A stretch of DNA of 23,987 bases from a virus. The notes under the pieces are model-generated. The model saw only the letters and a list, made by a program, of their open reading frames with translations, was not told where the DNA came from and ran no database searches. The position numbers were made by a program, and so were the translations under genes. Positions 2,109 to 14,868 of this stretch are shown here, one piece after another. Each line of letters opens with the position of its first letter. The first letter of the stretch is position 1. The stretch lies in IMG/VR virus record IMGVR_UViG_3300025030_000416, positions 1-23,987 of that record; one strand, 5' to 3'.

Positions 2109-2118
2109 GATTAGCAAC

Positions 2119-2166
2119 TATTCTTTTTTTTAATCGTTCGGATGAAAACCATGTGAAAAAAGAATA
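2119..2166. repeat. 11-bp inverted repeat in the divergent control region
   Basis: TATTCTTTTTT at 2119-2129 is the exact reverse complement of AAAAAAGAATA at 2156-2166, with 26 bases between. It lies just upstream of the minus-strand promoter candidate and before the rightward genes. It could be an operator or a terminator-like hairpin, but neither copy is followed by a clean T-run. The rest of 2085-2244 shows no gene. Confidence 0.4.
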
Positions 2167-2244
2167 AGTATTTTGTTGCTTTTCTTCTTGGGTAGGTTTA
2201 GATTAGTAAACTAAAAACAGAAAGGGTGTGAAGGGGAGAGAGAA

Positions 2245-2532: not shown

Positions 2533-3311
2533 CTGCCGAGTACCATCATCTTACCAGGGAGTTAGAGGTACGGGTACGGGAGATGTTTGAAAACGGGAAA
2601 AATATTAGCCAGATAGCCAGGGAGATCGGGTATTCCCGGGTGACCGTGCAGAAGTGGATAAAAAAATGGAGGCTTAAAACGGGTAAGCTAAAGCCGCTAG
2701 GCCACATGCCTAGAAAGGGATTACCGCCTATCGTGGCTCGGTATGATCGGTTGGCGGCACAAGGTATTCCGAAGGAAGTGGCTGAGGCCAACGATAAAAA
2801 TATAGAGCTATGTTTAGAGTGGGATAGGTGCGAGATATGTTTGCTGAGTCCGGGCAAGCGGAAGCAGTTGAAAGATATGTATTATGCGGGTTTTTCACCG
2901 CCGTTGATAGCCGTGTATCACAAGATTCCCTTTAGGGCGTTGGCGGGTCATGCACTACGCAAGAAGTGGGATCGTAAGATGGCCAACGATCCAGAGAGGA
3001 TAGCGACCGAGCGGGATACGTTGCTAGATGAGGTGTATCATATCATAGCGGAGTCAGAGGCGAGTGGTACACCGGCGGATAAGATAGCGGCATTAAAACT
3101 AGCGGCACAGTTGCAGGAAGTTGGGTCTTTTAGGGCAGAGAAAGAGAATACCCCGCAGAGGGTTTTTACTCCGGGAGTGTTGGTGAAGATGAAGCTAACG
3201 CTTAATAATACTGGGCAGACAAGAAATACCCTAGAAGAGGGGGAAGAGAATAGCGAGATGCTAGAAATCACGGCAGGGGAACTAAAAGGAGGAAAGGAAA
3301 ATGAAATATAG
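2529..3311 (+). CDS. helix-turn-helix DNA-binding protein, candidate small terminase subunit
   Basis: The 260-residue protein carries a clear helix-turn-helix at residues about 22-48 (NGKNISQIAREIGYSRVTVQ, then KWIKKW). A second HTH-like stretch lies near residues 125-150 (YYAGFSPPLIAVYHKIPFRAL, then a basic helix). The C-terminal third is acidic and probably disordered. N-terminal HTH plus a helical middle is typical of small terminase subunits that recognise the packaging site. It lies on the same strand upstream of the large terminase, but the cassette arrays and about 9.5 kb separate them. A homeodomain-like transcription regulator is the main alternative. Its 3' end overlaps the next start by 11 nt. 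Confidence 0.5.
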   Translation: MTAEYHHLTRELEVRVREMFENGKNISQIAREIGYSRVTVQKWIKKWRLKTGKLKPLGHMPRKGLPPIVARYDRLAAQGIPKEVAEANDKNIELCLEWDRCEICLLSPGKRKQLKDMYYAGFSPPLIAVYHKIPFRALAGHALRKKWDRKMANDPERIATERDTLLDEVYHIIAESEASGTPADKIAALKLAAQLQEVGSFRAEKENTPQRVFTPGVLVKMKLTLNNTGQTRNTLEEGEENSEMLEITAGELKGGKENEI

Positions 3312-3735
3312 GAATATTTTTGTATTTCCGTGGGGAGAGATAAGAGTTCCAGAGGAAAAGGAGGGTTTCGAATATCCTATAATTTACGGTGGAGATGCTA
3401 TTAGTGACCAGACTGTAGATAGCGGGGATGTATTTGAGGTTACATTACTTACTGCGGCCAAGAGGTATTTTAATCCGCACCCAAACTGCTTCTATATTGC
3501 GGTTGTATCGCCAAGCCAGTATGAACCTTTGGAATATTTTAGTTCTCCAGAATGGCCGCTCAAGGTTACTCGGGTAGGAGACATGCGGGTTCTCTTATAC
3601 GATAATATCCTTATTTACACACATAAAGACATTCCGCTAAGCAAAGGAGGGAGACACAACAGTATTTTCATATCCGAGGCAGTTTTTATGGGCGGTAGCG
3701 GTGAGGGAGTAGTGCTTCTTAGAACGGCGGTATAA
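3301..3735 (+). CDS. hypothetical phage protein
   Basis: This 144-residue protein belongs to no family I recognise. It is rich in aromatic and beta-forming residues, with no signal peptide or membrane segment. It begins inside the end of the preceding HTH gene, and AAAGGAGGAAAGG provides a strong ribosome binding site just before the ATG. It is therefore co-transcribed with its neighbours. Confidence 0.7.
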   Translation: MKYRNIFVFPWGEIRVPEEKEGFEYPIIYGGDAISDQTVDSGDVFEVTLLTAAKRYFNPHPNCFYIAVVSPSQYEPLEYFSSPEWPLKVTRVGDMRVLLYDNILIYTHKDIPLSKGGRHNSIFISEAVFMGGSGEGVVLLRTAV

Positions 3736-4177: not shown

Positions 4178-4234
4178 ATATAACGCAGTAATCAGCCGCC
4201 CGTGTAACGGGTCGGCTGGATGAGATTGTTAAAT
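4178..4234 (+). repeat. attC site A1 (57 bp), left boundary of array 1
   Basis: Left core ATATAAC (4178-4184) and right core GTTAAAT (4228-4234) flank an imperfect palindrome: CAGCCG and CCCGT on the left, ACGGG and CGGCTG on the right. A complete attC, rather than an attI, borders the phage sequence here. The last phage gene stops at 4160. Confidence 0.85.
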
Positions 4235-4255
4235 TTATTTTATGGAGGTTATTTT

Positions 4256-4495
4256 ATGCTGACAGATGATGAACTGAGAGAAGCATTTATGGCAACGAAT
4301 ACGGCAGAACCCCTAGCTGAAGGCTGGCCAGGCCTTGAAAGATTTGCGAGAGAAGTCGAAAGGCGTGTGGAAGAAAAGCATTTGCCTCTTGCCGATAGGT
4401 ACGGCAAGGAATGCGACGTATGTGGCGTGTTCCATCCATTGTCGAAATTGCAATGGAATGGTGCACAATTAGTTTGTTTTCCAATTTGCGGATAA
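4256..4495 (+). CDS. cassette 1: small protein with Cys/His motif
   Basis: The start was chosen at 4256 because GGAGG (4243-4247) lies nine bases upstream; the longer frame from 4220 would begin inside attC A1. The 79-residue product has an acidic N-terminal helix (LTDDELREAF) and a C-terminal CDVCGVFH, then VCFPICG, a possible zinc-binding site. The stop TAA lies within the left core of the next attC. No family recognised. It is expected to be carried and swapped as a single-gene cassette. Confidence 0.7.
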   Translation: MLTDDELREAFMATNTAEPLAEGWPGLERFAREVERRVEEKHLPLADRYGKECDVCGVFHPLSKLQWNGAQLVCFPICG

Positions 4496-4536
4496 CAATT
4501 AGTTGACCCCGCATGGGGTCAAACGGGAGGTTGAAA
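4490..4536 (+). repeat. attC site A2 (47 bp)
   Basis: Left core GGATAAC (4490-4496) and right core GTTGAAA (4530-4536) both deviate slightly from consensus. The stem is a perfect TTGACCCC/GGGGTCAA with a GCAT loop. It is the shortest attC here. Confidence 0.75.
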
Positions 4537-4737
4537 ATGCAAGATTCTATCCCTTATGAAAACATTGGGAAGCAGGAGTACGAAATAGAAATATTCAACA
4601 CGCTTCGTAAAGTGAAGCGTGCTGGGAACGAGTTAATGTCACTTTCGCCTGAAATACTGATATTCACCGATTGCACCCATCCCATGCAAAACATCATAGT
4701 GCCGGAATCGGAAATCAAATCATGGAAAAGGATTTAA
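4537..4737 (+). CDS. cassette 2: hypothetical 66-residue protein
   Basis: The ATG at 4537 immediately follows the right core of attC A2, and its GGGAGG ribosome binding site (4525-4530) lies inside that attC. I prefer it over the upstream in-frame ATG at 4513, which falls in the attC stem. The product is soluble and mixed in charge, with no recognisable motif. The stop TAA lies in the left core of A3. Confidence 0.65.
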   Translation: MQDSIPYENIGKQEYEIEIFNTLRKVKRAGNELMSLSPEILIFTDCTHPMQNIIVPESEIKSWKRI

Positions 4738-4790
4738 CGAATAGGTGAGCGGCGGGTGCTTCACCCGCCCGCTGGAGGGACTGGTTATAC
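4732..4790 (+). repeat. attC site A3 (59 bp)
   Basis: Left core ATTTAAC (4732-4738) and right core GTTATAC (4784-4790). The stem has GCGGCGGGT on the left and ACCCGCCCGC on the right around a GCTTC loop. Confidence 0.82.
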
Positions 4791-4806
4791 GGTTTATGGA
4801 GGTAAT

Positions 4807-5004
4807 ATGGAAAATCTTAGGATAAAGTGGGTATGTAGATGGTCGCCACAAGAGCGTCAACTTCGGTTTTTTCGGATAATGTGGGAAACATATAGGAAAG
4901 GCCCTGATCCGGTACGTTGTTATTCTCACAAGCTTGCTGTGTCTATAAAGCGATGGCTGCCACGCATTACGTTTCGCGTCAGTACCGGTGGTATTTATGT
5001 ATAA
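4807..5004 (+). CDS. cassette 3: small basic hypothetical protein
   Basis: The 65-residue product is rich in Arg, Lys and Trp. The ATG at 4807 has GGAGGT (4798-4803) directly upstream. An in-frame start at 4756 would lie inside attC A3 and is rejected. The stop lies in the left core of A4. No family recognised; the charge suggests a nucleic-acid or membrane-surface partner, without further support. Confidence 0.6.
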   Translation: MENLRIKWVCRWSPQERQLRFFRIMWETYRKGPDPVRCYSHKLAVSIKRWLPRITFRVSTGGIYV

Positions 5005-5058
5005 CGATATAACTAAGCTGTCGGGCTTTGCCCAGTCAGCTTGAGTGCCTTGTTAGCG
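4999..5058 (+). repeat. attC site A4 (60 bp)
   Basis: Left core GTATAAC (4999-5005) and right core GTTAGCG (5052-5058). The stem pairs AAGCTG with CAGCTT and GGGC with GCCC around a TTT loop. A second TATAAC at 5008-5013 is an alternative left core, but the first gives symmetric spacers. Confidence 0.82.
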
Positions 5059-5082
5059 AAATTCTTTTAATTGGAGACCGCC

Positions 5083-5409
5083 ATGAAGATTGAAGTTTAT
5101 CCGCAGTACCGAGATTACGCCGGGATGCTCGACTTTTACATTTTTTCAGTTGACCATGACGGCAGCAGATCCTTTTGCACCTCTTTGGAAAAGATGACCT
5201 TCCAAAAACATACAGAGGAGAGGACGGTTGAAAAGCCAACGATGTCCCTTAATCAGTATGTGGCAAAGCCATTTTTACAGGCGATGGCTGATGCGCTAGA
5301 CAAGCTCGGCATTCGGGCCACGGGGAAGCCGATTGCTGAAAACGAGTTGGTTGCCACCAAATACCATCTTGAGGATATGCGAAAACTGGTATTCGAGGCT
5401 TCTCGCTAA
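5083..5409 (+). CDS. cassette 4: hypothetical 108-residue protein
   Basis: The start is the ATG at 5083, with GGAG (5073-5076) upstream. An in-frame TTG at 5071 is possible but has no ribosome binding site. The first half looks beta-rich (IEVYPQYRDYAGMLDFYIFS); the second half has amphipathic helices. No signal peptide, membrane segment or catalytic motif is seen. The stop is inside the left core of A5. I do not recognise the family. Confidence 0.7.
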   Translation: MKIEVYPQYRDYAGMLDFYIFSVDHDGSRSFCTSLEKMTFQKHTEERTVEKPTMSLNQYVAKPFLQAMADALDKLGIRATGKPIAENELVATKYHLEDMRKLVFEASR

Positions 5410-5463
5410 CGTAAAGGCTGACTTGCCGTGGCTTCCACGGTCAAGTCCAGCCGCTTGTTAGGG
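5404..5463 (+). repeat. attC site A5 (60 bp)
   Basis: Left core CGCTAAC (5404-5410) and right core GTTAGGG (5457-5463). The long stem pairs GGCTG, GACTTG and CCGTGG on the left with CCACGG, CAAGTC and CAGCC on the right, around a CTT loop. Confidence 0.88.
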
Positions 5464-5835
5464 GTTTAAAATCCCTAACCATTGGAGGAACGATATGAAT
5501 ATAGATTTATGGACAATCGTAGTGATAACGCCCCAGATAATTGCGCTAATTGCGATGGTGTTCGCGCGACGGGCATCAGCTCGCGCCTGTGCTGCGAGTG
5601 AGTTGGCTTCTGTGGAAGCCTCTAAAGCCTTACGGTCAATAGATAATGTTTTATCTTCTCGCTCTGCGACCCGTACTGCTTCCATTGATGATCTCTTATC
5701 CTCTTGTAATTTTAACCATGAGGACATTTTGTTATGATTAGGACTTCCAACTTGGATTCTACCTGTAGCCAAAAGGTGACGCACTTTTTCTTCTCCCCAC
5801 TCTTCATATTGGGCAAATGGATTTCTTCTAGTCAT
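5458..5835 (-). CDS. cassette 5 (reverse-oriented gene): coiled-coil protein with C-terminal membrane segment
   Basis: The 125-residue minus-strand protein begins with a GEEKVRHLLATGRI helix and a SWLKLQEDKR segment. An Ala/Glu/Arg-rich coiled coil follows (residues about 45-90), then a hydrophobic C-terminus (TIAISAIIWGVITTIV). The minus-strand gene at 12351-12728 has the same length and domain order, which argues that this strand is the real one. AGGGGAG lies upstream of the ATG, partly inside the reverse complement of the A6 left core, and the stop lies in the A5 right core. I recall similar small membrane proteins in integron cassettes. The overlapping plus ORF at 5495-5737 also has a ribosome binding site and is not excluded. 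Confidence 0.65.
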   Translation of the reverse strand: MTRRNPFAQYEEWGEEKVRHLLATGRIQVGSPNHNKMSSWLKLQEDKRSSMEAVRVAEREDKTLSIDRKALEASTEANSLAAQARADARRANTIAISAIIWGVITTIVHKSIFISFLQWLGILNP

Positions 5836-5845
5836 AACATTTCTC

Positions 5846-5905
5846 CCCTAACGCACGAATTAAGCGGCGCAGTCCCACTGCGTCCGCTTGAATGATTTGT
5901 TAGAC
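5846..5905 (+). repeat. attC site A6 (60 bp)
   Basis: Left core CCCTAAC (5846-5852) and right core GTTAGAC (5899-5905). The stem pairs AAGCGG with CCGCTT and GCAG with CTGC around a TCCCA loop. Confidence 0.87.
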
Positions 5906-5923
5906 CATTTTGGGGAGGCGCTT

Positions 5924-6097
5924 ATGTGTTTAAAAATTGAAGAAATAGCCATGATGAACGGGGTTTGCCCTCTTTGTTTAGGTACTGGATTATTGCCACG
6001 GGAAGAACCTATATCCACTTGCACGTTCTGCCTCGGGAGCCGCAAAATAAATATTACAAAAGAGAAAGGCGAAGAGATCGGAGAAAGCGTTGAGTAA
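5924..6097 (+). CDS. cassette 6, first gene: small DnaJ-like zinc-finger protein
   Basis: The 57-residue product has CPLCLGTG and, 17 residues on, CTFCLGS. These are two CxxCxG knuckles like the DnaJ zinc-finger repeat, which would bind one zinc ion. The start at 5924 is chosen because GGGGAGG (5912-5918) lies five bases upstream; the in-frame ATG at 5888 lies inside attC A6. The C-terminus is Lys/Glu-rich. It converges with a short minus-strand ORF in the same cassette. Confidence 0.65.
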   Translation: MCLKIEEIAMMNGVCPLCLGTGLLPREEPISTCTFCLGSRKINITKEKGEEIGESVE

Positions 6098-6164
6098 GAA
6101 TAGTGACCGCCGTACCCGCAATGACGCCAAGGAAGATGCTGAAACCTTGAAGAAAGTAATCCAT
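6054..6164 (-). CDS. cassette 6, second gene: 36-residue single-pass membrane peptide (convergent)
   Basis: Found by reading the minus strand of the 90-base space between the zinc-finger gene and attC A7. The peptide MDYFLQGFSIFLGVIAGTAV is followed by a short basic tail, giving one membrane-spanning helix with positive charges after it. A strong AAGGAG lies five bases before the ATG. It overlaps the 3' end of the plus gene by 44 bases. The size and shape resemble small membrane toxins or leader-type peptides, but no antitoxin is seen and the function is unknown. It may be a chance ORF. Confidence 0.4.
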   Translation of the reverse strand: MDYFLQGFSIFLGVIAGTAVTILTQRFLRSLRLSLL

Positions 6165-6190
6165 AATTTCTCCTTTTATTTATTATTTGG

Positions 6191-6247
6191 GTCTAACGAC
6201 TGAATTGACCGGCGCTTTTGGGCGTCCGGTCGAATGACTTGTTATAC
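6191..6247 (+). repeat. attC site A7 (57 bp), near-identical to A8
   Basis: Left core GTCTAAC (6191-6197) and right core GTTATAC (6241-6247). The stem pairs GACCGG with CCGGTC and GCGC with the facing GGGCG. From the AAC of the left core to GTTAT of the right core it is identical to A8. Confidence 0.9.
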
Positions 6248-6267
6248 CAGTTTTAATGGAGGATGAA

Positions 6268-6612
6268 ATGGGAATCTGTTGGTACTGTCATTGGGGATGG
6301 CCGAAACCCGTAGCCGATATTTACACGAGGGCTTGCGTTGCCCTGGGAGATGAAGACGGACACGCCTTGCACTACGGACCAGCACATATTGTTTGGGAAG
6401 ATGAAAATTTTGGCTCTGCCGAATGGTGCCTTGAGCACTTTGATGAATACTCCGAGAATTTGAGTGATACCGAAAAGACAGTTGTGCGACAGTCGCTTGT
6501 GGAACTTGTAGCTTTGCCATTGGATGTCCGAGATGTCGAGCCGGAAGATTACGACGATGAACATCCTGCACTATTTCCTCCCCCGGCTGATGTTGTGATG
6601 GTGAAGGTATAA
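6268..6612 (+). CDS. cassette 7: conserved cassette-type protein with CWYCHWGWPKPVA motif
   Basis: The N-terminal MGICWYCHWGWPKPVADIY is a pattern I recall from integron cassette proteins of unknown function. It is followed by HYGPAHIVWEDENF and an acidic C-terminus (114 residues in all). The start is the ATG at 6268 with GGAGG (6258-6262) five bases upstream, not the ATG at 6256, which overlaps that ribosome binding site. The two Cys and one His in the first residues may bind metal. The stop lies in the left core of A8. It is bracketed by two near-identical attC sites, as expected for a cassette from a homogeneous chromosomal array. Confidence 0.75.
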   Translation: MGICWYCHWGWPKPVADIYTRACVALGDEDGHALHYGPAHIVWEDENFGSAEWCLEHFDEYSENLSDTEKTVVRQSLVELVALPLDVRDVEPEDYDDEHPALFPPPADVVMVKV

Positions 6613-6663
6613 CGACTGAATTGACCGGCGCTTTTGGGCGTCCGGTCGAATGACTTGTTATGT
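6607..6663 (+). repeat. attC site A8 (57 bp), near-identical to A7
   Basis: Left core GTATAAC (6607-6613) and right core GTTATGT (6657-6663), with a stem identical to A7. It is the last complete attC of array 1. Confidence 0.9.
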
Positions 6664-6671
6664 AAGGTTTT

Positions 6672-6863
6672 ATGAATCTTATTAAATTTTTTCATTCCAT
6701 TCGGTTATTTCCTAAGTGCGGTGCTTGGATGATTGAGAAACGCCCAAACTACCAAGAAGAGGATCTGGATGAATGGGAAACTGTTGGTTCCCATATTTGT
6801 TACCGTTGGAAGTATCACGATGGATTACACCGATGTCATTGCGGAAAAATATTTCATACATAA
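6672..6863 (+). CDS. cassette 8: small Cys/His-rich protein, last of array 1
   Basis: The 63-residue product has Cys and His near its C-terminus (HICYRWKYHDGLHRCHCGKIF), a possible zinc site. The ATG at 6672 follows the right core of A8, with only a short TAAGG upstream. The stop TAA lies in ACATAAC (6858-6864), which resembles a left attC core as in the other cassettes. However, no palindrome or right core follows, so the downstream attC appears lost. Confidence 0.6.
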   Translation: MNLIKFFHSIRLFPKCGAWMIEKRPNYQEEDLDEWETVGSHICYRWKYHDGLHRCHCGKIFHT

Positions 6864-6864
6864 C
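6858..6864 (+). other. putative left-core remnant of an attC at the end of array 1
   Basis: ACATAAC contains the stop codon of cassette 8 in the same way that other left cores contain their gene's stop. No attC stem follows; phage sequence starts at once. A 7-base degenerate match is weak on its own. It gains weight from the orphan right half-site at 10497-10514. Confidence 0.35.
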
Positions 6865-6918
6865 AGTTTGGTAGGGAGCACAAAACAATCATGAATGGTA
6901 GAAGGAGGTGAATAAGTT

Positions 6919-7173
6919 ATGACTTGGCGGGGATGGTTACTAGCAGTGGTGTTAAGCATAGCAATTAGTTCCGCTGGATGGGCAGGGGGGCGGGATAGAG
7001 AATGTAGTGGGTATCGGGCCAGCACAGGGGATTGCGATAGAGACGGTAAACCGAACTGGAGGGACCCGGACTGGCAGGATAGGAATAACGAGGTTGAAGA
7101 TTATTATAGAGATGACGATGGAGACGGGATAATTAATTCGGTTGACCCAGTGGAGGATGAGGATGTCTCTTAA
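6919..7173 (+). CDS. secreted Asp-rich protein with thrombospondin type 3-like calcium-binding repeats
   Basis: The first 22 residues are a signal peptide (TWRGWLLAVVLSIAISSAGWAG, cleavage after AGWA or close by). The mature part has DCDRDGKPNWRDPDW and DDDGDGIINSVDPVEDED. These match the DxDxDG-N/D pattern of thrombospondin type 3-like or EF-hand-like loops that bind Ca2+. AAGGAGGTGA gives a very strong ribosome binding site. It is 84 residues long, the first phage gene after array 1, and overlaps the next gene by 11 bases. An exported role at the host envelope is inferred; a decoration or lysis-associated protein is possible. Confidence 0.65.
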   Translation: MTWRGWLLAVVLSIAISSAGWAGGRDRECSGYRASTGDCDRDGKPNWRDPDWQDRNNEVEDYYRDDDGDGIINSVDPVEDEDVS

Positions 7174-7513
7174 AGCCGGCGGTAGGAAGTTCAAAATTCT
7201 CTATGTAGATTTTCTGTGGCAGAAGGTTAGAAAGTACGGGTCAGAGAAACAAGATATAGACGAGGGATTAAAAAAAGAACTCTGGCCGATCTTAGAAGCC
7301 GCATCAGAGGCCGGGGAGGAGATACGGATAACGGACGATAGGGCTATGGGCGTACCACCAATTTTTTATTTAGCCGTGTCATTAAGTATACAGGCATACC
7401 TGGAACTTGCTCTAAAGACAGGTAAACCACTGGTGTTAAATAAACAGCCCAGTGCCGAGCAGGGGTACTCTCGTAAGGCGATGCAAGAATTAAAAAAAAG
7501 GGGTATAAATTGA
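7163..7513 (+). CDS. hypothetical 116-residue phage protein
   Basis: The start at 7163 is chosen because GGAGG (7152-7156) lies six bases upstream; the ATG at 7157 and a TTG at 7142 are less well placed. The protein is mostly helical and mixed in charge (VDFLWQKVRKYG, ELWPILEAASEAGEEI), with a Lys/Arg-rich C-terminus. No signal peptide or known motif is seen. It is tightly packed between overlapping neighbours, typical of one transcription unit. Confidence 0.65.
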   Translation: MSLKAGGRKFKILYVDFLWQKVRKYGSEKQDIDEGLKKELWPILEAASEAGEEIRITDDRAMGVPPIFYLAVSLSIQAYLELALKTGKPLVLNKQPSAEQGYSRKAMQELKKRGIN

Positions 7514-7749
7514 AAGCAATTGATATTGATGATGATCCTATTGATGATCCTATTGATCCCGATAGAGCAATAGATGTGAATTGGCGGAGATATTTTGCCG
7601 ATGTAGCCAACAGGGAAAAGGAGCATTTCTCCTATCCCTCGGCTTATACAGAACCCGAACCCGGAATGCCACCATATTGGTTAAGGTTCCGGGTTTTTGA
7701 TGTTGCGGGTACCGTGCGGACTAGGTCATGCATAATGGGAAAGAATTAG
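7510..7749 (+). CDS. small Asp-rich hypothetical protein
   Basis: It starts with TTG overlapping the preceding stop (TTGA), implying coupled translation. The N-terminus is a short acidic repeat (DIDDDPIDDPIDPDRAID), and the rest contains aromatic residues and a Pro-rich patch. It is 79 residues long. No family recognised. The non-ATG start makes the call less certain. Confidence 0.5.
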   Translation: MKAIDIDDDPIDDPIDPDRAIDVNWRRYFADVANREKEHFSYPSAYTEPEPGMPPYWLRFRVFDVAGTVRTRSCIMGKN

Positions 7750-7761
7750 AGGAGCGCGGAA

Positions 7762-8019
7762 ATGTTTAATCAAGGGCAGATAGTACGGCATAAATTAAGT
7801 CCACGTGTACATTTTTTGGTCTTGGGGCAGTTAAGCCCCGGGAATTATGTTTTACGGGTGGCGGCTGGGGAGGTATTAGATTTATCTCAAGTAGTAGTGC
7901 TCAATGAGATAGAGTTAGAAGGAGTAGAAGATGAAGGCGGGGAGAGGATTCCAGAGGCCGAGGACTATGACTGGGAGAATACCCCGGAACTAGGAATAGA
8001 TGACTTAATAGGGAGGTAA
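7762..8019 (+). CDS. hypothetical acidic protein with beta-rich N-terminal half
   Basis: Residues 1-45 of the 85-residue product look like a small beta barrel (GQIVRHKLSPRVHFLVLGQL, then NYVLRVAAGEVLDLSQVVVL), a shape common in phage accessory proteins. The C-terminal half is strongly acidic. GGAGCGCGG lies upstream of the ATG. Function unknown. Confidence 0.65.
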   Translation: MFNQGQIVRHKLSPRVHFLVLGQLSPGNYVLRVAAGEVLDLSQVVVLNEIELEGVEDEGGERIPEAEDYDWENTPELGIDDLIGR

Positions 8020-8023
8020 AAAG

Positions 8024-8296
8024 ATGAAGATAGGGATAAAAGCAGGAGAAGAAGTAGAACTTTCTTACAAGAGTTATTCTGGATACATGGAAGATACCCT
8101 TCTAATTACAGTTGAGGCTATGGGCGGCAACAAAACTAAGGAGTCTATTATTTCTATTAATAGGTATCCGATACTGAGGGTTTGTGATAAGGTTTTTGAA
8201 CTAATTTTAACGGCTCCAGCAGGGCGGAAAATATTTAAAAATACACTAATGAAGGTTTTGTTACATGAAGAAGATAGTCCGACAGAAGCGGAATAA
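8024..8296 (+). CDS. hypothetical 90-residue protein
   Basis: It begins five bases after the preceding stop, with GGGAGG as ribosome binding site. It is predicted mixed alpha/beta, with no signal peptide. The end overlaps the next gene by 32 bases in another frame. No family recognised. Confidence 0.6.
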   Translation: MKIGIKAGEEVELSYKSYSGYMEDTLLITVEAMGGNKTKESIISINRYPILRVCDKVFELILTAPAGRKIFKNTLMKVLLHEEDSPTEAE

Positions 8297-8552
8297 AGAA
8301 ATAGCCAAGCTATTTTGGGAAGAGCACTGGCCTAAGAAACGGATTGCTAGAACGCTAGGCTTAGATATTACAACGGTTAGAGATATATTGGGAAAGGAAG
8401 AAGCCCCACAACCTTTGACCACACAAGTTCCTATACAACCTTCTACTCAGGTAAAGAAAGAAGGTAAAAAGAAACTAGAGGACTATACCTTGGAAGAGGC
8501 AGAGGGGATAACCAAGCTGATAGAAAAGGTTTTAGAAAAAGTGGGAGGGTAA
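8265..8552 (+). CDS. small helix-turn-helix DNA-binding protein
   Basis: Residues about 8-42 form a clear helix-turn-helix (RNKEIAKLFWEEHWPKKRIA, then RTLGLDITTVRDIL), like the N-terminal HTH of transposase or sigma-like regulators. A Pro/Gln/Thr linker follows, then an acidic helical C-terminus. The 95-residue gene starts inside the end of its upstream neighbour. A regulator of this gene block, or a DNA-bound structural protein, is plausible. No target site was identified. Confidence 0.65.
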   Translation: MKKIVRQKRNKEIAKLFWEEHWPKKRIARTLGLDITTVRDILGKEEAPQPLTTQVPIQPSTQVKKEGKKKLEDYTLEEAEGITKLIEKVLEKVGG

Positions 8553-8600
8553 AGCAGATGGAAAGGTGGGGTATGTTAGAAAGGAAAAGGGAGGAGAATA

Positions 8601-9488
8601 ATGCAAGAGTTATATAGAGCAGTATTTATAACACAGATTTTTAGTTGCGAGCGGTGTTTCCAGGCAGTTAGAGAGGTGTTTACAAAGACCAGCGGACTAA
8701 CTATCGAAGAAGGTGAGACACTAAAACAGGCCAGCGAAGCCAAGAACCGGACTAATGTGTTTGGGAGAATGATTAAGGTTGCTCTCCCCGCAGAAAACCA
8801 GCGTCCAGAACGGGCTTTTTTGCACGGCATTATCCAGTATCGCACTATGCACAGCCTGGACATTATTTTTAGAGACAGTATTCTTAAAAAAGTTACTGGA
8901 GCGATATGCCATGAAGTCAGGATAGCTGTTGTAGGGCATGGGGAGACCAAGCAATATGTATTAAAACCCGGGATAGAACCTATTGACGAAACGGCACAGG
9001 TTAAGTTAGCTCACCAAAGCGATTATCTCGAGATAGAAAGCACCAGGAGGCTGCTGGAGAACCTAAGCAATAAAGAGTGGATAAGCGAGGGCGATTTACG
9101 GAGACGGTTTGAAGACAGTAAAGGCCATACTGGAAGCTACTGGAGCTTAGGGAACAAGATTGAAACCGCATTACGGGTAGGCTTTATACAGACGGCTCCC
9201 GATACGACCCAAATTATGTTTTCTATTACCAAGCTGGGCCTGAAATTCCTTAAAGGGGGGATAATGACAGTATTAGAACATGAAAGGGGCCTGGTGAGGG
9301 GACTGCATCTTGCGATCTTAGAGTGGAACGACGGTATAGCATCTTTGAAGGGATTAACGGCGGGATTAACGCAGAACATGACCCGGTTGCTTACTGACGG
9401 TAGTATCCAGGGAGAAGATAAAGAAGAGCGGGAGGCTTTTTTGGACGAACTAGACAGAAGCCGGGACTTTAGGGAAAAGGTAGAGTAA
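8601..9488 (+). CDS. hypothetical 295-residue phage protein
   Basis: GGGAGGAG lies six bases before the ATG. The protein is soluble. Residues about 130-220 contain helix-turn patterns (TRRLLENLSNKEWISEGDLRR, then a beta-hairpin-like ITKLGLKFLKGG) that resemble a winged-helix fold. The C-terminal 60 residues are highly charged helix. An early CERC pair could bind metal. I do not recognise the family. It is followed at 13 bases by another unknown gene. Confidence 0.65.
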   Translation: MQELYRAVFITQIFSCERCFQAVREVFTKTSGLTIEEGETLKQASEAKNRTNVFGRMIKVALPAENQRPERAFLHGIIQYRTMHSLDIIFRDSILKKVTGAICHEVRIAVVGHGETKQYVLKPGIEPIDETAQVKLAHQSDYLEIESTRRLLENLSNKEWISEGDLRRRFEDSKGHTGSYWSLGNKIETALRVGFIQTAPDTTQIMFSITKLGLKFLKGGIMTVLEHERGLVRGLHLAILEWNDGIASLKGLTAGLTQNMTRLLTDGSIQGEDKEEREAFLDELDRSRDFREKVE

Positions 9489-9500
9489 AGGAGGAATTTT

Positions 9501-10133
9501 ATGCTTTTAAAGGCAAAAATCAAGCAATATCAGGTAAAGATCGGTATAGGGCTGTTGTTAGGGGGATTGCCCCAGGATAAAAAAGCATTAGAATATCTTG
9601 CCGGGCATCCAGAGAGAGACGGTTCCTTAGCGGCTAGTGAGATGTTGGCTGATAATGCAGAGGAGCTTGAAGAAATTGAGGAAAAAAGAAGTAATAAGTG
9701 TATCTTTCGTAGAACGCCAGACGGAAAGCCTGCGGTTGACGAGCATCATGTCCGGGCTTTTGTCCGGGATGTGCTTAAAAAGCTGGAGTTAAATAAAAAA
9801 GCTCCGTGGAAAGGGTTCTGGATGAGCGTCCATACTGTTCCGATGCTGATTCCAGTTGAAGGAGAAGAGATTATAGAGAGCCGGGCATTCAAAGCTGGGT
9901 TTCCGAATCCTGCTAATATTGTTGTAGTGCATGAAGCGGTAAAAAACGCTACCCTTAGGTTCACACTGGAAATTCACGGGGATAATGGAGAGAAGGCTAG
10001 TATTGAAGATTTGCACTATATCTTTGAATACGGAGGGCGGTATGTAGGATTTGGGCCAGCCAAAACTAAGTCCATGAGTGAAACGCCTTATGGGATATTC
10101 ACTTGTCATAACCTTGTTCCTTCTCCTGAATAG
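9501..10133 (+). CDS. hypothetical 210-residue phage protein
   Basis: AGGAGG precedes the ATG by seven bases. The N-terminus is basic helical, the middle has an acidic helix (EELEEIEEKRS), and the C-terminal 110 residues look beta-rich. It ends near GGRYVGFGPAKTKSMSETPY, a glycine-rich closing pattern I have seen in conserved phage proteins of unknown role. No catalytic motif is visible. It is the last confident phage gene before array 2. Confidence 0.65.
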   Translation: MLLKAKIKQYQVKIGIGLLLGGLPQDKKALEYLAGHPERDGSLAASEMLADNAEELEEIEEKRSNKCIFRRTPDGKPAVDEHHVRAFVRDVLKKLELNKKAPWKGFWMSVHTVPMLIPVEGEEIIESRAFKAGFPNPANIVVVHEAVKNATLRFTLEIHGDNGEKASIEDLHYIFEYGGRYVGFGPAKTKSMSETPYGIFTCHNLVPSPE

Positions 10134-10227
10134 AAAAGGCTGAGGCCTAAGAACAGACCAGAAGGGAAGAGTCTTAGACCGAGGTATAGAGACGAAGGGC
10201 CATGGACTTGAAGGGAAGAGACTTGAT
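10134..10227. repeat. short intergenic stretch with two imperfect direct repeats
   Basis: GAAGGGAAGAG occurs at about 10161-10171 and again at about 10210-10220, each followed by a similar CTT-containing stretch. No gene or palindrome was seen. The second copy sits just before the ATG at 10228 and may act as a weak ribosome binding site. Confidence 0.35.
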
Positions 10228-10512
10228 ATGCCTTTGACTGGAATGGAAAAGACGAGATTGGCCTTAGATTGGATAAGAAAGGATGCCCAGGGAATTGTAG
10301 TTGAATATAGTGTTGATGATTACCCGAAAGACTGGGAACTAACCCCTGCACTTTGGGAAAGGTGGATAGTCGGAAAGCTCAAGGATGCAGGTGTTCCGAT
10401 CAAGGGTGTTTTGAAATTTTCGGGGCTTGAAAGTGGCACGCTGCATAGGCTGGACGACCCTGCTGATTTTGGTAGGGCGAAATGGGTTTGGGTACCTCCA
10501 GCCGCTTGTTAG
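10228..10512 (+). CDS. hypothetical protein whose C-terminus runs into an attC remnant
   Basis: The 94-residue product reads coherently to GRAKWVWVP. The last residues (PAAC) and the TAG stop are encoded by the right half of an attC site (10497-10514). The N-terminal half is helical, with TRLALDWIRKDA. The ribosome binding site is weak. The native C-terminus is probably lost and replaced by attC-derived sequence, so this may be a truncated gene. Family unknown. Confidence 0.5.
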   Translation: MPLTGMEKTRLALDWIRKDAQGIVVEYSVDDYPKDWELTPALWERWIVGKLKDAGVPIKGVLKFSGLESGTLHRLDDPADFGRAKWVWVPPAAC

Positions 10513-10514
10513 GA
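10497..10514 (+). other. right half of an attC site (left half missing), start of array 2
   Basis: The 17 bases TCCAGCCGCTTGTTAGG are identical to the right end of attC A5 (5446-5462). They include the right core GTTAGGA (10508-10514) and the outer stem arm CAGCC. No left core or matching left arm is found directly upstream, where the gene at 10228-10512 runs instead. Confidence 0.7.
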
Positions 10515-10521
10515 GGTAATT

Positions 10522-10755
10522 ATGGAAGGAAGCCGCATAGAAGCACAAAGGCAAAAGAATCTTCGGCGTTCAGAACTGCTGGGAAAAGTGTTTAGAATAG
10601 TTATTGTTGCAGGCAAAGCAGGACAGATTGGGTACAGGTGCTATCGCTCTAAAGGTATGAAGCTAAAATGTGGTCGTTGTGGGCGAGGGAATATTACGGT
10701 TGAATTAGGTTATAAATGCCGTGTTTGCGGGACGGAGGTAATACAGATTATATAA
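10522..10755 (+). CDS. cassette 9: small zinc-ribbon protein
   Basis: The 77-residue product is basic at the N-terminus. Its C-terminal half has KCGRCGRGN and, 14 residues on, KCRVCGTE. This is a classic four-Cys zinc ribbon (CxxC...CxxC), as in small RNA- or DNA-binding proteins. The ribosome binding site GGAGGT overlaps the right core of the attC half-site, and the stop TAA lies in the left core of A9. The exact role is unknown. Confidence 0.7.
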   Translation: MEGSRIEAQRQKNLRRSELLGKVFRIVIVAGKAGQIGYRCYRSKGMKLKCGRCGRGNITVELGYKCRVCGTEVIQII

Positions 10756-10839
10756 CGTAGAGGTCAGCGGCGGCGGGCCGCTGACTCCAGAATTGAAACA
10801 AGACGCGAACCCGCCGTTCGCTGCACCGCTTGGTTAGGC
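10750..10839 (+). repeat. attC site A9 (90 bp, longest of the window)
   Basis: Left core ATATAAC (10750-10756) and right core GTTAGGC (10833-10839). Inside are two separate hairpins: GTCAGCGGC with GCCGCTGAC, and GCGAAC with GTTCGC. The layout departs from the single long stem of the other sites. It may be a longer attC variant or a fusion of two attC halves. Confidence 0.7.
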
Positions 10840-10843
10840 CATT

Positions 10844-11197
10844 ATGAGTCAACGCTTGCACATCGGAAACACGAAAGACGAGTTCTACGACTGCGTGCTG
10901 GAAAGCGCGGATGGCGCAGAAGAAAAACTGCGGGCAGATTGGCTCGCGATGGGAAACGGATTCTATCTCGGGCCGTGGAAAATACGAATCGGCGACAAGA
11001 ACCTGTTCAAGGAAATCGAACCGATCATCGCAGGAATCTTCGAGGAACTTGGCAAGGAATACCCGGACGATGTTTGGGCGTTCTATGACGGCGAACGAAA
11101 CTTGGAGCATCCGACGCGCGAGGAGCTGGGCGCATGGCTTTGGCCTAACGCAGAGGTCAGCCGACGGCGTAGCCGGTCGGCTGGAGCGACTGGTTAG
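10844..11197 (+). CDS. cassette 10: hypothetical acidic protein whose reading frame runs through attC A10
   Basis: The 117-residue frame starts four bases after the right core of A9. Residues 1-100 read as a coherent soluble, acidic protein (NGFYLGPWKIRIGD, GIFEELGKEYPDD). The last 17 residues are encoded by attC A10, and the stop TAG falls in its right core. The gene is markedly G+C-rich compared with the phage genes. There is no clear Shine-Dalgarno. Family not recognised, though the WPNAEVSRRRSRSAGATG tail is simply translated attC. Confidence 0.65.
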   Translation: MSQRLHIGNTKDEFYDCVLESADGAEEKLRADWLAMGNGFYLGPWKIRIGDKNLFKEIEPIIAGIFEELGKEYPDDVWAFYDGERNLEHPTREELGAWLWPNAEVSRRRSRSAGATG

Positions 11198-11199
11198 CT
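11143..11199 (+). repeat. attC site A10 (57 bp)
   Basis: Left core GCCTAAC (11143-11149) and right core GTTAGCT (11193-11199) match consensus well. The stem pairs CAGCCGAC and GGC on the left with GCC and GTCGGCTG on the right. Confidence 0.9.
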
Positions 11200-11218
11200 A
11201 CGGAAAGGGGAAACTTTT

Positions 11219-11449
11219 ATGCATAAAGAAGAACTTATCTTTAAAGTAATTGAGCCTTCAGGAAAAGTCTATAAAATATACACAAACGGCAAAACTGAAG
11301 GGTTCGCTAAGGGTTCATGTATATTTAAGTATCATATTGGGTTGTTGAATCGTCAATTGGCTACTCAATATTTGGTCAATAAATCCCTTGCGTCATCATG
11401 TCCTGCAACAAAGGCAATATCATCAGAGCTAGGGGGATTGCAAGGATGA
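11219..11449 (+). CDS. cassette 11: hypothetical 76-residue protein, 3' end overlapping a reverse pseudogene
   Basis: The first 45 residues form a beta-rich unit (FKVIEPSGKVYKIYTNGKTE, GFAKGSCIFKY) of a kind I associate with cassette proteins of unknown function. The ATG follows a GGAAAGGGGAAA stretch. The C-terminal third overlaps the antisense remnant at 11376-11735 and may not be native. The attC that should follow this gene was not found, so it may be fused to the next cassette. Confidence 0.5.
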   Translation: MHKEELIFKVIEPSGKVYKIYTNGKTEGFAKGSCIFKYHIGLLNRQLATQYLVNKSLASSCPATKAISSELGGLQG

Positions 11450-11775
11450 CCGTTTCACCATAACCAAGGGGGTAATATGATGAATTTTTTATGTGGGCTT
11501 TATCAAAAGGGTAACCGAGAGCCTTACCCATTACATGCAAGAGGTCAATCAATAGATCAGCTTTACGGGGTGCCCATGATTCAAGTGGGTAATTTTTGTC
11601 CTGAAGGTGAGCATGATAAAGTTTCCATGCCGAAAGGACATCCTGCTCAAGCGATGTCTTGGGAAGAAATTCAACATCAATCATGTTTAGACTCTCGACA
11701 TGCTGAGGAGCCAGAGTGGATGAACGAGTAGACATGAGGTCTTTAAATATTCTTAATTTTCTTTCTCTGCCGCGA
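11376..11775 (-). pseudogene. cassette remnant: 5'-truncated DUF6680-like gene (reverse orientation)
   Basis: The minus strand reads KLRIFKDLMSTRSSTLAPQH then VESLNMIDVEF, AWKLYHAHL and LLIDLLHVMGKALGYPFDKAHIK. I recognise these as the core of DUF6680-type small membrane proteins, common in genomic accessory regions. Family members begin with a membrane segment before this core. Here that part is missing, because reading upstream past the only ATG (11735) the frame runs at about 11770 into the arm of a truncated attC. The C-terminus (ILAIPLALMILPLLQDM) also looks atypical. The overlapping plus ORF at 11477-11731 has a possible ribosome binding site but low-complexity sense. The family name is from memory and needs a profile search. 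Confidence 0.55.
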
Positions 11776-11809
11776 AGGCGGAGCGTCCGCGTTGACGCAA
11801 ATGTTAGGC
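11776..11809 (+). other. right half of an attC site (left half missing)
   Basis: Right core GTTAGGC (11803-11809) is preceded by a long arm, GGCGGAGCGTCCGCGTTGAC then GCAAAT, which has no complementary left arm or left core upstream. The deletion removed the left half together with the 5' end of the reverse DUF6680-like gene. Confidence 0.6.
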
Positions 11810-11826
11810 ATGGTAAAGGAGCGATG

Positions 11827-12276
11827 ATGAAAACGGTAGGTGATTACCTTCGCAAGCTGCAAGAGTTCCCGGAAGATTGGCCAGTATGGGTTTCAACGCA
11901 AGCCGGCGGCGGAATTTCCATTGAACACCGGGAGATAAACGGCGAGCCTGTAGTGGCCGTCTTTGGCAGCAACGGCGGACGTTTCGGCGAGAACCCGCTG
12001 ACCGACCAAGAGTACGAAAAAAAGTCCAAGTTGTTCCTTGGTCTGCGGCAGCAGGGTTACGAGTATACCTCAATCCACGGCGACCACCGACTGTATCGGC
12101 GAAGCGGAATGAACGATACCTGCTACGGCACTCACTTTGATAGACGCATTGTTGAACGCATGGTGGACGAAGGGCTGTTGCACGAAACCGAAGTGGATGT
12201 TGCGCGAGTGCGGCGTTGTACAGGGCAGGCGTTGACTTCATTGGTTTTGAAAAAGACGCCACTTATTACGAAATAG
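11827..12276 (+). CDS. cassette 12: hypothetical 149-residue protein
   Basis: The start is at 11827 (or the adjacent ATG at 11824), with AAAGGAG (11815-11821) upstream. The longer frame from 11716 crosses the attC arm and is rejected. The N-terminal 70 residues (TVGDYLRKLQEFPEDWPVWV, then GSNGGRFGEN) resemble small cassette or phage proteins of unknown role. The second half has GDHRLYRRSGMNDTCYGTHF and a helical EGLLHETEVD. It is G+C-rich relative to phage genes. No catalytic motif identified. Confidence 0.7.
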   Translation: MKTVGDYLRKLQEFPEDWPVWVSTQAGGGISIEHREINGEPVVAVFGSNGGRFGENPLTDQEYEKKSKLFLGLRQQGYEYTSIHGDHRLYRRSGMNDTCYGTHFDRRIVERMVDEGLLHETEVDVARVRRCTGQALTSLVLKKTPLITK

Positions 12277-12296
12277 CAAAGGGCAAATTAGGTGCT

Positions 12297-12356
12297 TGCT
12301 AACGCTAGAACTCACCTGCCGCCGCTTCGGCGGTCAGGTGTAGTGACTTGTTAGGA
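12297..12356 (+). repeat. attC site A11 (60 bp)
   Basis: Left core TGCTAAC (12297-12303) and right core GTTAGGA (12350-12356). The stem pairs ACCTG and CCGCCG with CGGCGG and CAGGT around CTT. The left arm, from AACGC through CACCTGC, is shared with A12. Confidence 0.9.
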
Positions 12357-12728
12357 GGAGGTAATTTTGTTTATAAGCCATAGTACAAGCCATATAATAT
12401 CTTCCCTTGCTGCTATTGTAGCGATTATTATAGCTATAATCATGATTATTCGATCATTCCAACGAGAACGGTTAGCTAACCGTGCCTCTGCCAAAGCAGA
12501 AGAAGCAATGCGGTTAGCTTCTTTGGCTATAGAGAGAGTGGCTTCTTCACGTGCATCACGTTTAGTTGCATCAGATGCTTCCAATGCAAGCCGTTTAGAT
12601 TCAAGCCAGGCATCAACCTGAGACCGTCTTTCTGTACCGAGGGAACCATGCAGTCCTTTTGCAATTTCAAGCAAGATAGCCTCCGGGCCTTTGGCCTCAA
12701 GGGGTTCAACAAGGTAGGATTTGTCCAT
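12351..12728 (-). CDS. cassette 13 (reverse-oriented gene): coiled-coil protein with C-terminal membrane segment
   Basis: The 125-residue minus-strand protein has the same plan as the one at 5458-5835: a GPEAILLEIAKGLHGSLG helix, a DAWLESKRLALEAS segment, an Ala-rich coiled coil (residues about 55-90) and a hydrophobic C-terminus (IIMIIAIIIATIA, then IIWLVLWLI). The ribosome binding site AGGAGGT, seven bases before the ATG, is partly supplied by the reverse complement of the A12 left core (GTTAGGA). The stop TAA lies in the A11 right core. A plus-strand ORF with a TTG start (12367-12621) also has a Shine-Dalgarno, but the shared family points to the minus strand. It probably sits in the inner membrane with the coiled coil in the cytoplasm. 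Confidence 0.68.
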   Translation of the reverse strand: MDKSYLVEPLEAKGPEAILLEIAKGLHGSLGTERRSQVDAWLESKRLALEASDATKRDAREEATLSIAKEANRIASSALAEARLANRSRWNDRIIMIIAIIIATIAAREDIIWLVLWLINKITSS

Positions 12729-12738
12729 TTTTATTACC

Positions 12739-12806
12739 TCCTAACGCTAGAACTCACCTGCTAAAACCGCCTTGCGGTTTTGGTCAGGTGGAGGGACTGG
12801 TTAGCA
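12739..12806 (+). repeat. attC site A12 (68 bp), right boundary of array 2
   Basis: Left core TCCTAAC (12739-12745) and right core GTTAGCA (12800-12806). The long stem pairs CTCACCTG and AAAACCGC with GCGGTTTT and CAGGTGGAG. Phage sequence leading to the terminase starts right after; 12807-12876 holds no recognisable gene. Confidence 0.9.
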
Positions 12807-12876
12807 TTTATGAAGATATTATTAAAGATATTTATTCCTCAATTTATTGGTTTTCCTTAATTAGAAATTCTTTGAG

Positions 12877-14505
12877 ATGACTTGTTTCTACTGCAATAAA
12901 AAAGTACCCAATATAGGACAGGATTACTGGGGTGATCCGATATGCCAGGAGTGCAACGCCAGGTATTATAAGCCTGGTTGGGAGACGGGGCAGGATAGGC
13001 ATAGGATAGAATTGCCCTGGTATTTAAAGATCAGGTACGATATAGATAAAGCCGAGCAGGGCATTATAGTAAAATACTCTCCTCTACCCTCTATTCAACC
13101 GTTCCACCAGAGTAGGGGTTACAATCGGTGTATAATTGGCCCCAGGGGCTCGACCAAGACATCCTCTGCCCTTATAGAAAAGTTGCTTATTGCCCAGAGG
13201 AACTTTCCTCGGTTCAGGCATTTTAAGTTTTTAATTGTGAGAAGGACCTATCGGGAACTGAAAGATTCTACACAGGCAACCTTCTTTAAGCTCTTTCCAA
13301 AAGATGAAGTAAACTGCATCTATAGGGGTGGAGAAGAAGAAACGGCTAGTTTGATCTTACAGGGAGCTAACCCAGGGGTAGTAGATTTTATTTTTAGAAG
13401 TGCCCAAGAGCCAGAGGATGTTGGTAAGTTCCTGTCCGGTGAATATACTGGGGTACTTATTGATGAGGCCGTACAAGTACCGAGGATGGTACGAGATGGG
13501 CTGGTAGGCTGCTTACGGTATCCAGAAGGCTTCCCCCCAAAAGATTATCATATTGATCTTATAAGTAACCCCCCTGACTCCGAAGAACACTGGATATATC
13601 AGTGTTTCTATCCTGAATCCAGGAAAAAATTACCCAACCATGCCCTTTTCCTCAATACTCCATTTGAAAATAAACCGATGCTCCGTAACGACCCCAATTA
13701 TTACAATAAACTTTGTGAGGCAATGCCCCCGGATATGGCTGAAATATATGTTTATGGAAAGGTGGGGTACATACAGAAGGGAGACCCTTTTTATCCCTGG
13801 TTTGCGAAAGATTTGCATGTCTTTGATAAGACACAGGAAAAGCTGTCTCCTTACGGGACAATACTCAGGGGGTTGGATTTTGGTCTGGGTAAAAGTGTTT
13901 GTTTATATTGCTATGAAGATGAGAGAGGGAATATTGATATACTGGATGAGATAGTTGTGAGTGATCGGGGAGGGACAAAAAGATTGGCTGAGATGGCGAT
14001 ACTCCTGAAAAACAGATGTTATCGGGACTTTCTTTTTGAAGATTTTGCCGATATTGCAGGCAAAAATTATACTTCTGCAAGTCCAGATACCTCGGATTTT
14101 GATATTTTGACGAAATACGGTATTATCCCCCGGGGCAGGCAATCGCAATATAAAGAACGTCGTAATATTTTGTATCACTTCCTTACAACTATTGACCCAG
14201 AGCTAAAACGGCCTAAATTGCGGGTAGATAAAAGTTGTGTGAATATTATCCGGGGTTTTCTGGGGGGCTATCGGCAGCCTAAACAGAAAGACCGGACAAC
14301 AACCCAAAAAGTAATGCCGGTAAAAGAGGGGCATTACGAACATTTTTTTAATGCCTTAGAATATATCTTGGTGGGGCGTTATGGGATGGATGACCAGGCA
14401 GAACTACCGCTTAGGGGTAAGAGACGGGACACATACGATAGTGGAGAGGACTGGTTTGGAGAGATGGAACCAGTAGAAAATCAATGGGGATACTTAGGGA
14501 GGTGA
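12877..14505 (+). CDS. terL: large terminase subunit (packaging ATPase and nuclease)
   Basis: This 542-residue protein pumps phage DNA into proheads and cuts it. The ATPase domain has Walker A GPRGSTKT (residues 88-95) and Walker B GVLIDE (192-197). The C-terminal RNase H-like nuclease has its first acidic residue in RGLDFGLGKS (D334), further acidic residues in LFEDFADIAG, and HFFNALEYI near the end. Unusually, the N-terminus carries CFYC and CQEC (Cys 3, 6, 23, 26), a four-Cys zinc-ribbon-like motif before the motor. The start ATG has no strong Shine-Dalgarno and lies 70 bases after the last attC, so part of its native leader may have been altered by the array. It heads the structural gene run. 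Confidence 0.92.
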   Translation: MTCFYCNKKVPNIGQDYWGDPICQECNARYYKPGWETGQDRHRIELPWYLKIRYDIDKAEQGIIVKYSPLPSIQPFHQSRGYNRCIIGPRGSTKTSSALIEKLLIAQRNFPRFRHFKFLIVRRTYRELKDSTQATFFKLFPKDEVNCIYRGGEEETASLILQGANPGVVDFIFRSAQEPEDVGKFLSGEYTGVLIDEAVQVPRMVRDGLVGCLRYPEGFPPKDYHIDLISNPPDSEEHWIYQCFYPESRKKLPNHALFLNTPFENKPMLRNDPNYYNKLCEAMPPDMAEIYVYGKVGYIQKGDPFYPWFAKDLHVFDKTQEKLSPYGTILRGLDFGLGKSVCLYCYEDERGNIDILDEIVVSDRGGTKRLAEMAILLKNRCYRDFLFEDFADIAGKNYTSASPDTSDFDILTKYGIIPRGRQSQYKERRNILYHFLTTIDPELKRPKLRVDKSCVNIIRGFLGGYRQPKQKDRTTTQKVMPVKEGHYEHFFNALEYILVGRYGMDDQAELPLRGKRRDTYDSGEDWFGEMEPVENQWGYLGR

Positions 14506-14592
14506 GAAAAATCAAAGAGTTTATATTTCATTGGGGAACAATAATGGGAAGTAGTGGGCATAAACTGATATTATTAGGGACAGCAATTTAAG

Positions 14593-14826: not shown

Positions 14827-14842
14827 ATAAGAAAAAAAACAT

Positions 14843-14864: not shown

Positions 14865-14868
14865 GTGT

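Follow-up and report, generated by a model that had tools for sequence, protein, structure and literature searches.

The 23,987-base window analysed here (the whole stretch of the IMG/VR virus record IMGVR_UViG_3300025030_000416) is a coding region of a tailed phage. It carries genes for a DnaD-like helicase loader, the terminase large subunit (terL), the portal and the major capsid protein, the last three in order (phrog_2, phrog_156, phrog_334), as in the Caudoviricetes. Between the early genes and terL lie two clusters of attC, the recombination sites of integron gene cassettes, at 4178-6663 (array 1) and 10750-12806 (array 2), with phage genes flanking and separating them (Table 1). Site and gene spacing show one small open reading frame (ORF) and one attC per unit, i.e. 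gene cassettes. An initial annotation of this DNA had described such attC clusters, punctuating small ORFs in a tailed-phage contig and devoid of an integrase, and our model and PHROG matches bear this out. The integron integrase IntI (TIGR02249) had no match in the window or in L003 and L006, two overlapping contigs of the same phage, all of them genome fragments. With at least two closely spaced attC and no IntI, the locus, on an incomplete contig, is a cluster of attC sites lacking integron integrases (CALIN); it has no intI gene and is not a complete integron. The phage carries genuine IntI-less cassette arrays, and most of their genes run antiparallel to attC.

Eleven complete attC were recognised from sequence and fold. 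Two covariance models were used: R1, built from eight attC of class 1 plasmid arrays with no phage sites, and R2, a broader model of 19 sites that is partly phage-trained, six coming from this window. R1 matched nine of the eleven sites (E 7e-16 to 3e-4) and R2 matched ten, all on the minus strand; R2 gained the sites at 4732-4790 and 5404-5463 and did not match the 90-nt site at 10750-10839, which R1 found. On the plus strand the sole R1 match in the window was a 10.5-bit fragment, with nothing significant. The core boxes R'' and R' (RYYYAAC ... GTTRRRY) are present at all eleven sites, some off by one or two positions, and folds, R1 and covariation agree on a conserved hairpin with an extrahelical base and asymmetric arms. 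Covariation in the stems of the combined alignment amounted to 29 both-side changes, versus 12.6 when shuffled, and a strict attC pattern gave one match in the window versus none in 100 window shuffles. Rfam had no match in the window. The covariance-model check proposed in the initial annotation was thus favourable, even with class 1 sites only. However, that annotation had counted twelve complete sites, and a hairpin at 4489-4536 has no extrahelical base and matches neither model. Lying between genes, the hairpins could act on the transcript, and might be phage regulatory elements (terminators or RNA processing sites) that merely resemble attC. Against this, they match class 1 attC in sequence and structure down to the core boxes, lack the T-run of intrinsic terminators, and bound units exchanged at the core TAA/C (the slash marking the crossover) between otherwise unrelated contigs, as described below. 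We regard this explanation as scarcely credible.

Alignment with class 1 sites places the attC top strand on the minus strand of the window, where the sites read TAACAA...A-bulge...GCGTTA, like aadA1. As a control for strand preference, true class 1 sites scored 56-87 bits on the correct strand and never above 31 on the opposite one. The sites do share one orientation, as first annotated, but that orientation had been given as plus; with attC taken on the wrong strand, the inversion of the genes was missed. Nor do all cassettes face the late genes, as had also been claimed, for 11 of the 14 cassette ORFs are on the plus strand and three (5458-5835, the truncated 11376-11735 and 12351-12728) on the minus. 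A cassette ORF usually, though not absolutely, runs 5' to 3' towards its own attC, whereas 11/14 here are antiparallel. In the plus-strand ORFs a Shine-Dalgarno sequence (SD) and start codon stand just past the box, and the TAA stop often falls within the next TAAC core. Array 1 ends with a stop codon (6861-6863) whose junction with phage DNA coincides exactly with the predicted crossover TAA/C. Array 2 is eroded at both ends, with a half-site near 10510 and no cassette past the site at 12739-12806. Two of the canonical cassettes, 5458-5835 (-) and 12351-12728 (-), lie in different arrays and encode small membrane proteins that resemble each other (36% over 67 positions, E 4e-6); this similarity suggests a cassette family that may have entered twice.

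Other viral arrays were collected by one scan of IMG/VR with one attC pattern and no gene condition, giving 35 stretches that represent that attC type. R2 identified 139 sites in these stretches and the reference loci, and more in extended regions. IntI scored above the cut-off in two of the 37 records searched, with one further weak partial match. Many of the contigs are plainly phage, carrying terminase, portal, primase, polymerase or tail genes, and in three (L058, L063 and L075) the array stands beside terL as in the window. Across 95 intervals between neighbouring attC on IntI-less viral contigs, the better ORF was antiparallel in 67, parallel in 10 and unresolved in 18; counted by contig, the ratio was 21:2 (p = 6.6e-5). 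When ORF length alone was used, without the SD bonus, antiparallel ORFs still prevailed (44:13; by contig 15:3, p = 0.008). The controls, which were IntI-bearing contigs and class 1 arrays (a few coordinates in L017 being set by eye), gave 18 parallel and one antiparallel. Moreover, SD precedes 63 of 90 antiparallel ORFs versus 11 of 76 parallel ORFs, and the ORF chooser favours SD equally on both strands. Among viral arrays that have this attC type and lack IntI, inversion of the gene relative to attC is general; it is present here and on about 20 other contigs.

Homology provides a test of orientation, because a frame on the wrong strand should match no family. Among 78 antiparallel ORFs, 12 Pfam and 41 PHROG families were matched (DNA methyltransferases, MT-A70, Dam, Phage_gp49_66); among 61 parallel ORFs there was no match to either. 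The DUF6680 gene of the window, which lies outside this set, is a real parallel exception. The recognisable cargo of the phage arrays is phage-type, namely DNA methyltransferases, Mom-like DNA modification and Phage_gp49_66, as would be expected of a store of anti-restriction and accessory early genes.

Relative to the transcription of the flanking phage genes, arrays were antiparallel in 13 cases, parallel in two and mixed in 15. IntI works on the bottom strand of attC, and which strand is chosen sets cassette orientation at attI (PMC11023631). The 13:2 bias therefore means that the recombinogenic bottom strand of attC is the phage sense strand. A 66-kb contig (L056; IMGVR_UViG_3300020171_000022, contig positions 16000-35999) carries one attC array on the plus strand (195-3110) and another on the minus (9422-11547), and its ORFs are antiparallel to attC in both (11:0). 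In the published phage MW202573, three attC on the minus strand lie beside genes annotated on the plus. A bacterial control from the Fibrobacterota held 16 IntI loci and few attC of the R2 type. An R2 scan of 168 genomes found no sites. The only IntI-bearing Fibrobacterota contig with two sites is L109, where the intervening ORFs (441 and 312 aa) run parallel to attC.

Footprints of exchange were found on other viral contigs, and it is from these that the evidence for cassette mobility comes. L029 (4166-4816) and the terminase-bearing L032 (7528-8178), otherwise unrelated, have one 651-bp stretch in common (94.5%). It runs from the TAAC core of the attC 5' of a Mom-like ORF, through attC and ORF, to CATAA/C, beyond which the contigs differ. 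A second unit, laid out in the same way, is common to L054 and L072. These edges support both the strand call and mobility, and indicate that in the moving unit attC comes first and the ORF second, and that crossover takes place at R' of the inverted site; a canonical unit would have the order ORF, attC. The strand call could nevertheless be misleading if phage-typical attC have an unusual asymmetry, with the sites working on the plus strand and the cassettes being canonical. R'' and R' are nearly symmetric, so that the ORFs fit both readings equally, and L121 carries the Mom ORF with a different upstream attC, as if crossover had taken place at the plus-strand G/TT. However, the class 1-only model finds nothing significant on that strand, the extrahelical base and the TAACAA...GCGTTA ends agree with the minus strand at the sites examined, and both contig pairs share the upstream attC plus ORF and diverge right past CATAAC, as minus-strand sites predict. 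We therefore consider a misread strand quite improbable.

The cargo of these units also has phage relatives. The Mom-like anti-restriction cassette occurs in five viral contigs (L029, L032, L114, L121 and L122), being internally deleted or truncated in L121 and L122. Its protein is matched by 276 phage records, and its plasmid relatives are distant only. Within the window, relatives of the gene at 6268-6612 (48-61% identity) occur in six other viral contigs, with no attC near any of them, and relatives of that at 5083-5409 in two phage-like, attC-free contigs binned with metagenome-assembled genomes (MAGs). These relatives indicate that at least two window cassettes hold genes that are plain phage genes elsewhere. 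Either phage genes may have turned into cassettes, or cassettes may have shed their attC in other phages. Searches against plasmids gave no match for the array DNA or for the protein of 11827-12276.

Arrays commonly break assemblies, and L003 and L006 begin 10-25 bp beyond attC ends, as might be seen if the window were an assembly chimera or bacterial contamination joined to phage. However, L003 and L006 come from other IMG/VR samples and correspond, at 99.9% identity, to window positions 5474-22749 and 10537 to past the window end, respectively. They carry array 1 (in part), array 2 and the phage genes in one piece, so that three contigs show the same contiguity; the leftmost junction of array 1 (~4178) is supported by the window contig alone. 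Phage genes also lie on either side of the arrays and between them, and about 20 further viral contigs are organised alike, including those with arrays beside terL. A chimera, which the initial annotation had named as a way for its proposal to fail, is thus contradicted by the reproduced array-phage junctions, and we give it almost no weight. The starts of L003 and L006 were also considered as cassette variation in the population, which was rejected since the breakpoints are not at crossover positions. A third overlapping contig, L008, covers late genes only. The main difference among the contigs of this phage species is a 28-bp insertion at 22040-22067 of the window relative to L003, L006 and L008.

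Table 1. Features of the window and the evidence for each.
Feature	Coordinates	Strand	Evidence
attC A1, 57 nt, left end of array 1	4178-4234	-	R1 37.4 bits, E 7.5e-9; R2 48.0 bits; bottom-strand fold with extrahelical base
Degenerate attC-like symmetric hairpin, no extrahelical base, not counted as attC	4489-4536	.	no R1 or R2 match
attC A3	4732-4790	-	R2 48.4 bits, E 1.7e-10; no R1 match
attC A4	4999-5058	-	R1 35.9, R2 41.7 bits
attC A5, two extrahelical bases	5404-5463	-	R2 29.1 bits, E 2e-5; fold
attC A6, nearest to class 1 consensus	5846-5905	-	R1 60.4 bits, E 7.4e-16
attC A7	6191-6247	-	R1 41.8, R2 64.9 bits
attC A8, near copy of A7 (98% identity over 56 bp)	6607-6663	-	R1 42.9, R2 64.4 bits
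Half attC at the eroded left end of array 2; retains only R''/L'' (as named on the minus strand)	10497-10517	-	sequence
attC B1, 90 nt	10750-10839	-	R1 22.3 bits, E 3e-4
attC B2	11143-11199	-	R1 46.6, R2 50.1 bits
Half attC; other half lost along with DUF6680 N-terminus	11750-11812	-	sequence
attC B4	12297-12356	-	R1 46.8, R2 59.2 bits
attC B5, right end of array 2, 70 bp before terL	12739-12806	-	R1 27.6, R2 39.7 bits
Cassette ORF, 79 aa, SD, antiparallel to attC	4256-4495	+
Cassette ORF, stop TAA overlapping TAAC core of A3	4538-4737	+
Cassette ORF, 65 aa, SD, stop TAA in A4 core	4807-5004	+
Cassette ORF, 108 aa	5083-5409	+	homologues in two phage-like contigs without attC: 32% over 110 aa, 50% over 42 aa
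Cassette ORF, canonical orientation, 125 aa, small membrane protein, SD directly past R' box	5458-5835	-
Cassette ORF, 57 aa, two CxxC pairs	5924-6097	+
Cassette ORF, 114 aa	6268-6612	+	homologues in six other viral contigs
Final cassette of array 1; phage DNA resumes at 6864	6672-6863	+	sequence
Cassette ORF, 77 aa, zinc-ribbon-like, stop in B1 core	10522-10755	+
Cassette ORF, 117 aa	10844-11197	+
Cassette ORF, 76 aa	11219-11449	+
DUF6680 gene, N-terminally truncated, canonical orientation, broken cassette	11376-11735	-	Pfam PF20385, 1.5e-26, profile 44-135/170
Cassette ORF, 150 aa, SD	11824-12276	+
Cassette ORF, canonical orientation, 125 aa, resembles 5458-5835	12351-12728	-
Terminase large subunit (terL)	12877-14505	+	phrog_2, 3.7e-22
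Portal protein	14978-16936	+	phrog_156, 6.5e-80
Major capsid protein	18676-19704	+	phrog_334, 2.1e-68

Some further features of the phage were observed outside the arrays. An O-antigen ligase gene (20275-21468, plus; Wzy_C, 5e-16) lies within the structural gene block, an unusual location for a membrane enzyme of this kind, and perhaps has a role in changing the host surface. Upstream of array 1, a 144-aa ORF (3301-3735, plus) resembles the C-terminal half of this phage's own major capsid protein (24% identity over 151 positions, E 2e-6), which makes a duplicated or decoration-type capsid fragment possible. Three tandem 30-bp repeats (17648-17737, plus) stand near the start of the ORF between the portal and capsid genes, and the start of a DNA adenine methyltransferase gene (3-365, minus; phrog_56, 7.5e-33) is cut by the contig end. 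Lastly, outside this phage, a Chitinivibrionales MAG contig (L014:7287-9959, plus) encodes an 890-aa terminase-like protein with an intein-like insertion (a Hint-like motif past residue 75, read by eye).

Taken together, we interpret the window as part of a tailed-phage genome with two IntI-less cassette arrays, whose inverted-gene units would form a phage-adapted pool moved in trans by host IntI, a reading to which we assign a probability of about 0.75. In phage transcription order the unit is attC, SD and ORF, the stop TAA often being supplied by the TAA/C box of the next site. A host-encoded IntI would recombine the folded phage attC in trans, and may thereby add, remove and exchange units among host arrays, prophages and phages that co-infect a cell. 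Of six attC from virulent phages that were tested, five are recombined by IntI1 (PMC9892861). The genes would be read from phage promoters and not from the integron promoter Pc, and selection would keep those units whose ORF follows phage transcription. In a bacterial integron an inverted gene would be antisense to Pc. Such a unit would benefit a phage that reads through the array from its operon, and not a bacterium, which fits the right edge of array 1, where TAA meets phage DNA at TAA/C. Capture through the host integrase, as proposed in the initial annotation, survives in part. The attC-bounded, cassette-sized differences between phages fit mobilisation in trans. However, simple pick-up and spread of bacterial cassettes fits poorly, because the genes are inverted relative to attC and antisense to Pc, and because at least two cassette genes are nearest to ordinary attC-free phage genes.

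An alternative is an ordinary CALIN: the phage would have captured part of a bacterial chromosomal integron via illegitimate or off-target recombination, with nothing remarkable in the orientation. Phage CALINs, virulent phages included, have been published (PMC9892861), the eroded ends and half-sites of array 2 resemble those of decaying arrays, and three window cassettes are canonical. However, captured arrays should keep ORF and attC parallel, and the viral intervals were 67:10 antiparallel against controls that were 18:1 parallel. The lack of any family match among the parallel ORFs and the phage homologues of cassette genes also speak against an ordinary CALIN, which we judge unlikely.

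Several observations weigh against a phage-adapted pool of inverted units. The controls are few and come mostly from gammaproteobacteria, with L046 supplying their one antiparallel call, and orientation was called by an ORF heuristic. Besides the three canonical cassettes of the window, all resolved intervals of L072 and L063 are canonical, although the first L072 interval hides a model-missed attC and itself encloses an antiparallel unit. Cassettes of phages TJE1 and PH101 are reported to face one way, which is typical (PMC9892861); their attC get no score from R2, so that neither phage served as an orientation test. In L121 the Mom ORF is preceded by another attC, a case that simple crossover at R' leaves unexplained. 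For this phage no IntI, host or recombination event was seen, nor was any gain or loss of a cassette at the window locus. The initial annotation had suggested comparing related phage contigs for different cassette content at the same place, but searches with the terminase, portal, capsid, early and inter-array genes found the same species only. All related contigs carried the same cassettes, with no variant array or empty site among them, and the predicted empty site of array 1 had no exact match in IMG/VR.

That phages can carry CALINs is already known. Qi, Rajabal, Ghaly, Tetu and Gillings described in 2023 (PMC9892861) 17 CALINs, attC clusters without IntI, in temperate and virulent phages. 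The window resembles these in its IntI-less attC clusters, and DNA methyltransferase cargo is a further likeness, but it differs in having eleven complete sites in two arrays. ORF inversion is not described there, although one of those phages, MW202573, fits the inverted class. Class 1 cassettes (aadA1, aadA2, catB3, qacL, cmlA1 and others) share attC sequence and fold, one ORF per attC, and a stop at or near the core box; in those the ORF precedes attC in transcription and is read from Pc, whereas in the window attC precedes the ORF and IntI is missing. Sedentary chromosomal integrons, represented by the control L046/L050 (an IntI-bearing isolate contig), likewise have long single-strand attC arrays with small unknown ORFs, but IntI is present and the ORFs of L046 are nine parallel to one antiparallel. 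The Mom-like cargo of L029/L032, which is not in the window itself, resembles phage Mom-like DNA modification proteins as an anti-restriction gene, but is packaged with attC where Mom is usually an ordinary phage gene. Descriptions of genes inverted against their attC in phage arrays, of how frequent this is, of footprints of whole units or of a phage origin for some of the cargo were not found in the searchable literature, which excluded preprints and most subscription papers. The inverted gene orientation is the new point. Standard attC callers give the strand, and gene direction relative to attC in phages seems unexamined in that literature.

We further suggest, tentatively and at somewhat less than even odds, that phages maintain their own cassette pool apart from bacterial integrons. 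In such a pool phage genes would gain an inverted attC, be expressed from the phage operon, be silent at a bacterial attI and be mobilised between phages by host IntI in trans, making phages a birthplace of cassettes and not only their carriers. If phages tag their own small genes with attC and swap them, this would be a concrete source of integron cassettes. If true, it would also offer a route for the spread of anti-restriction genes between phages and a reason for the many orphan genes in integrons. Inverted polarity is an easy marker to count in viromes of any kind, and cassettes that have it are predicted to stay silent once captured by a bacterium.

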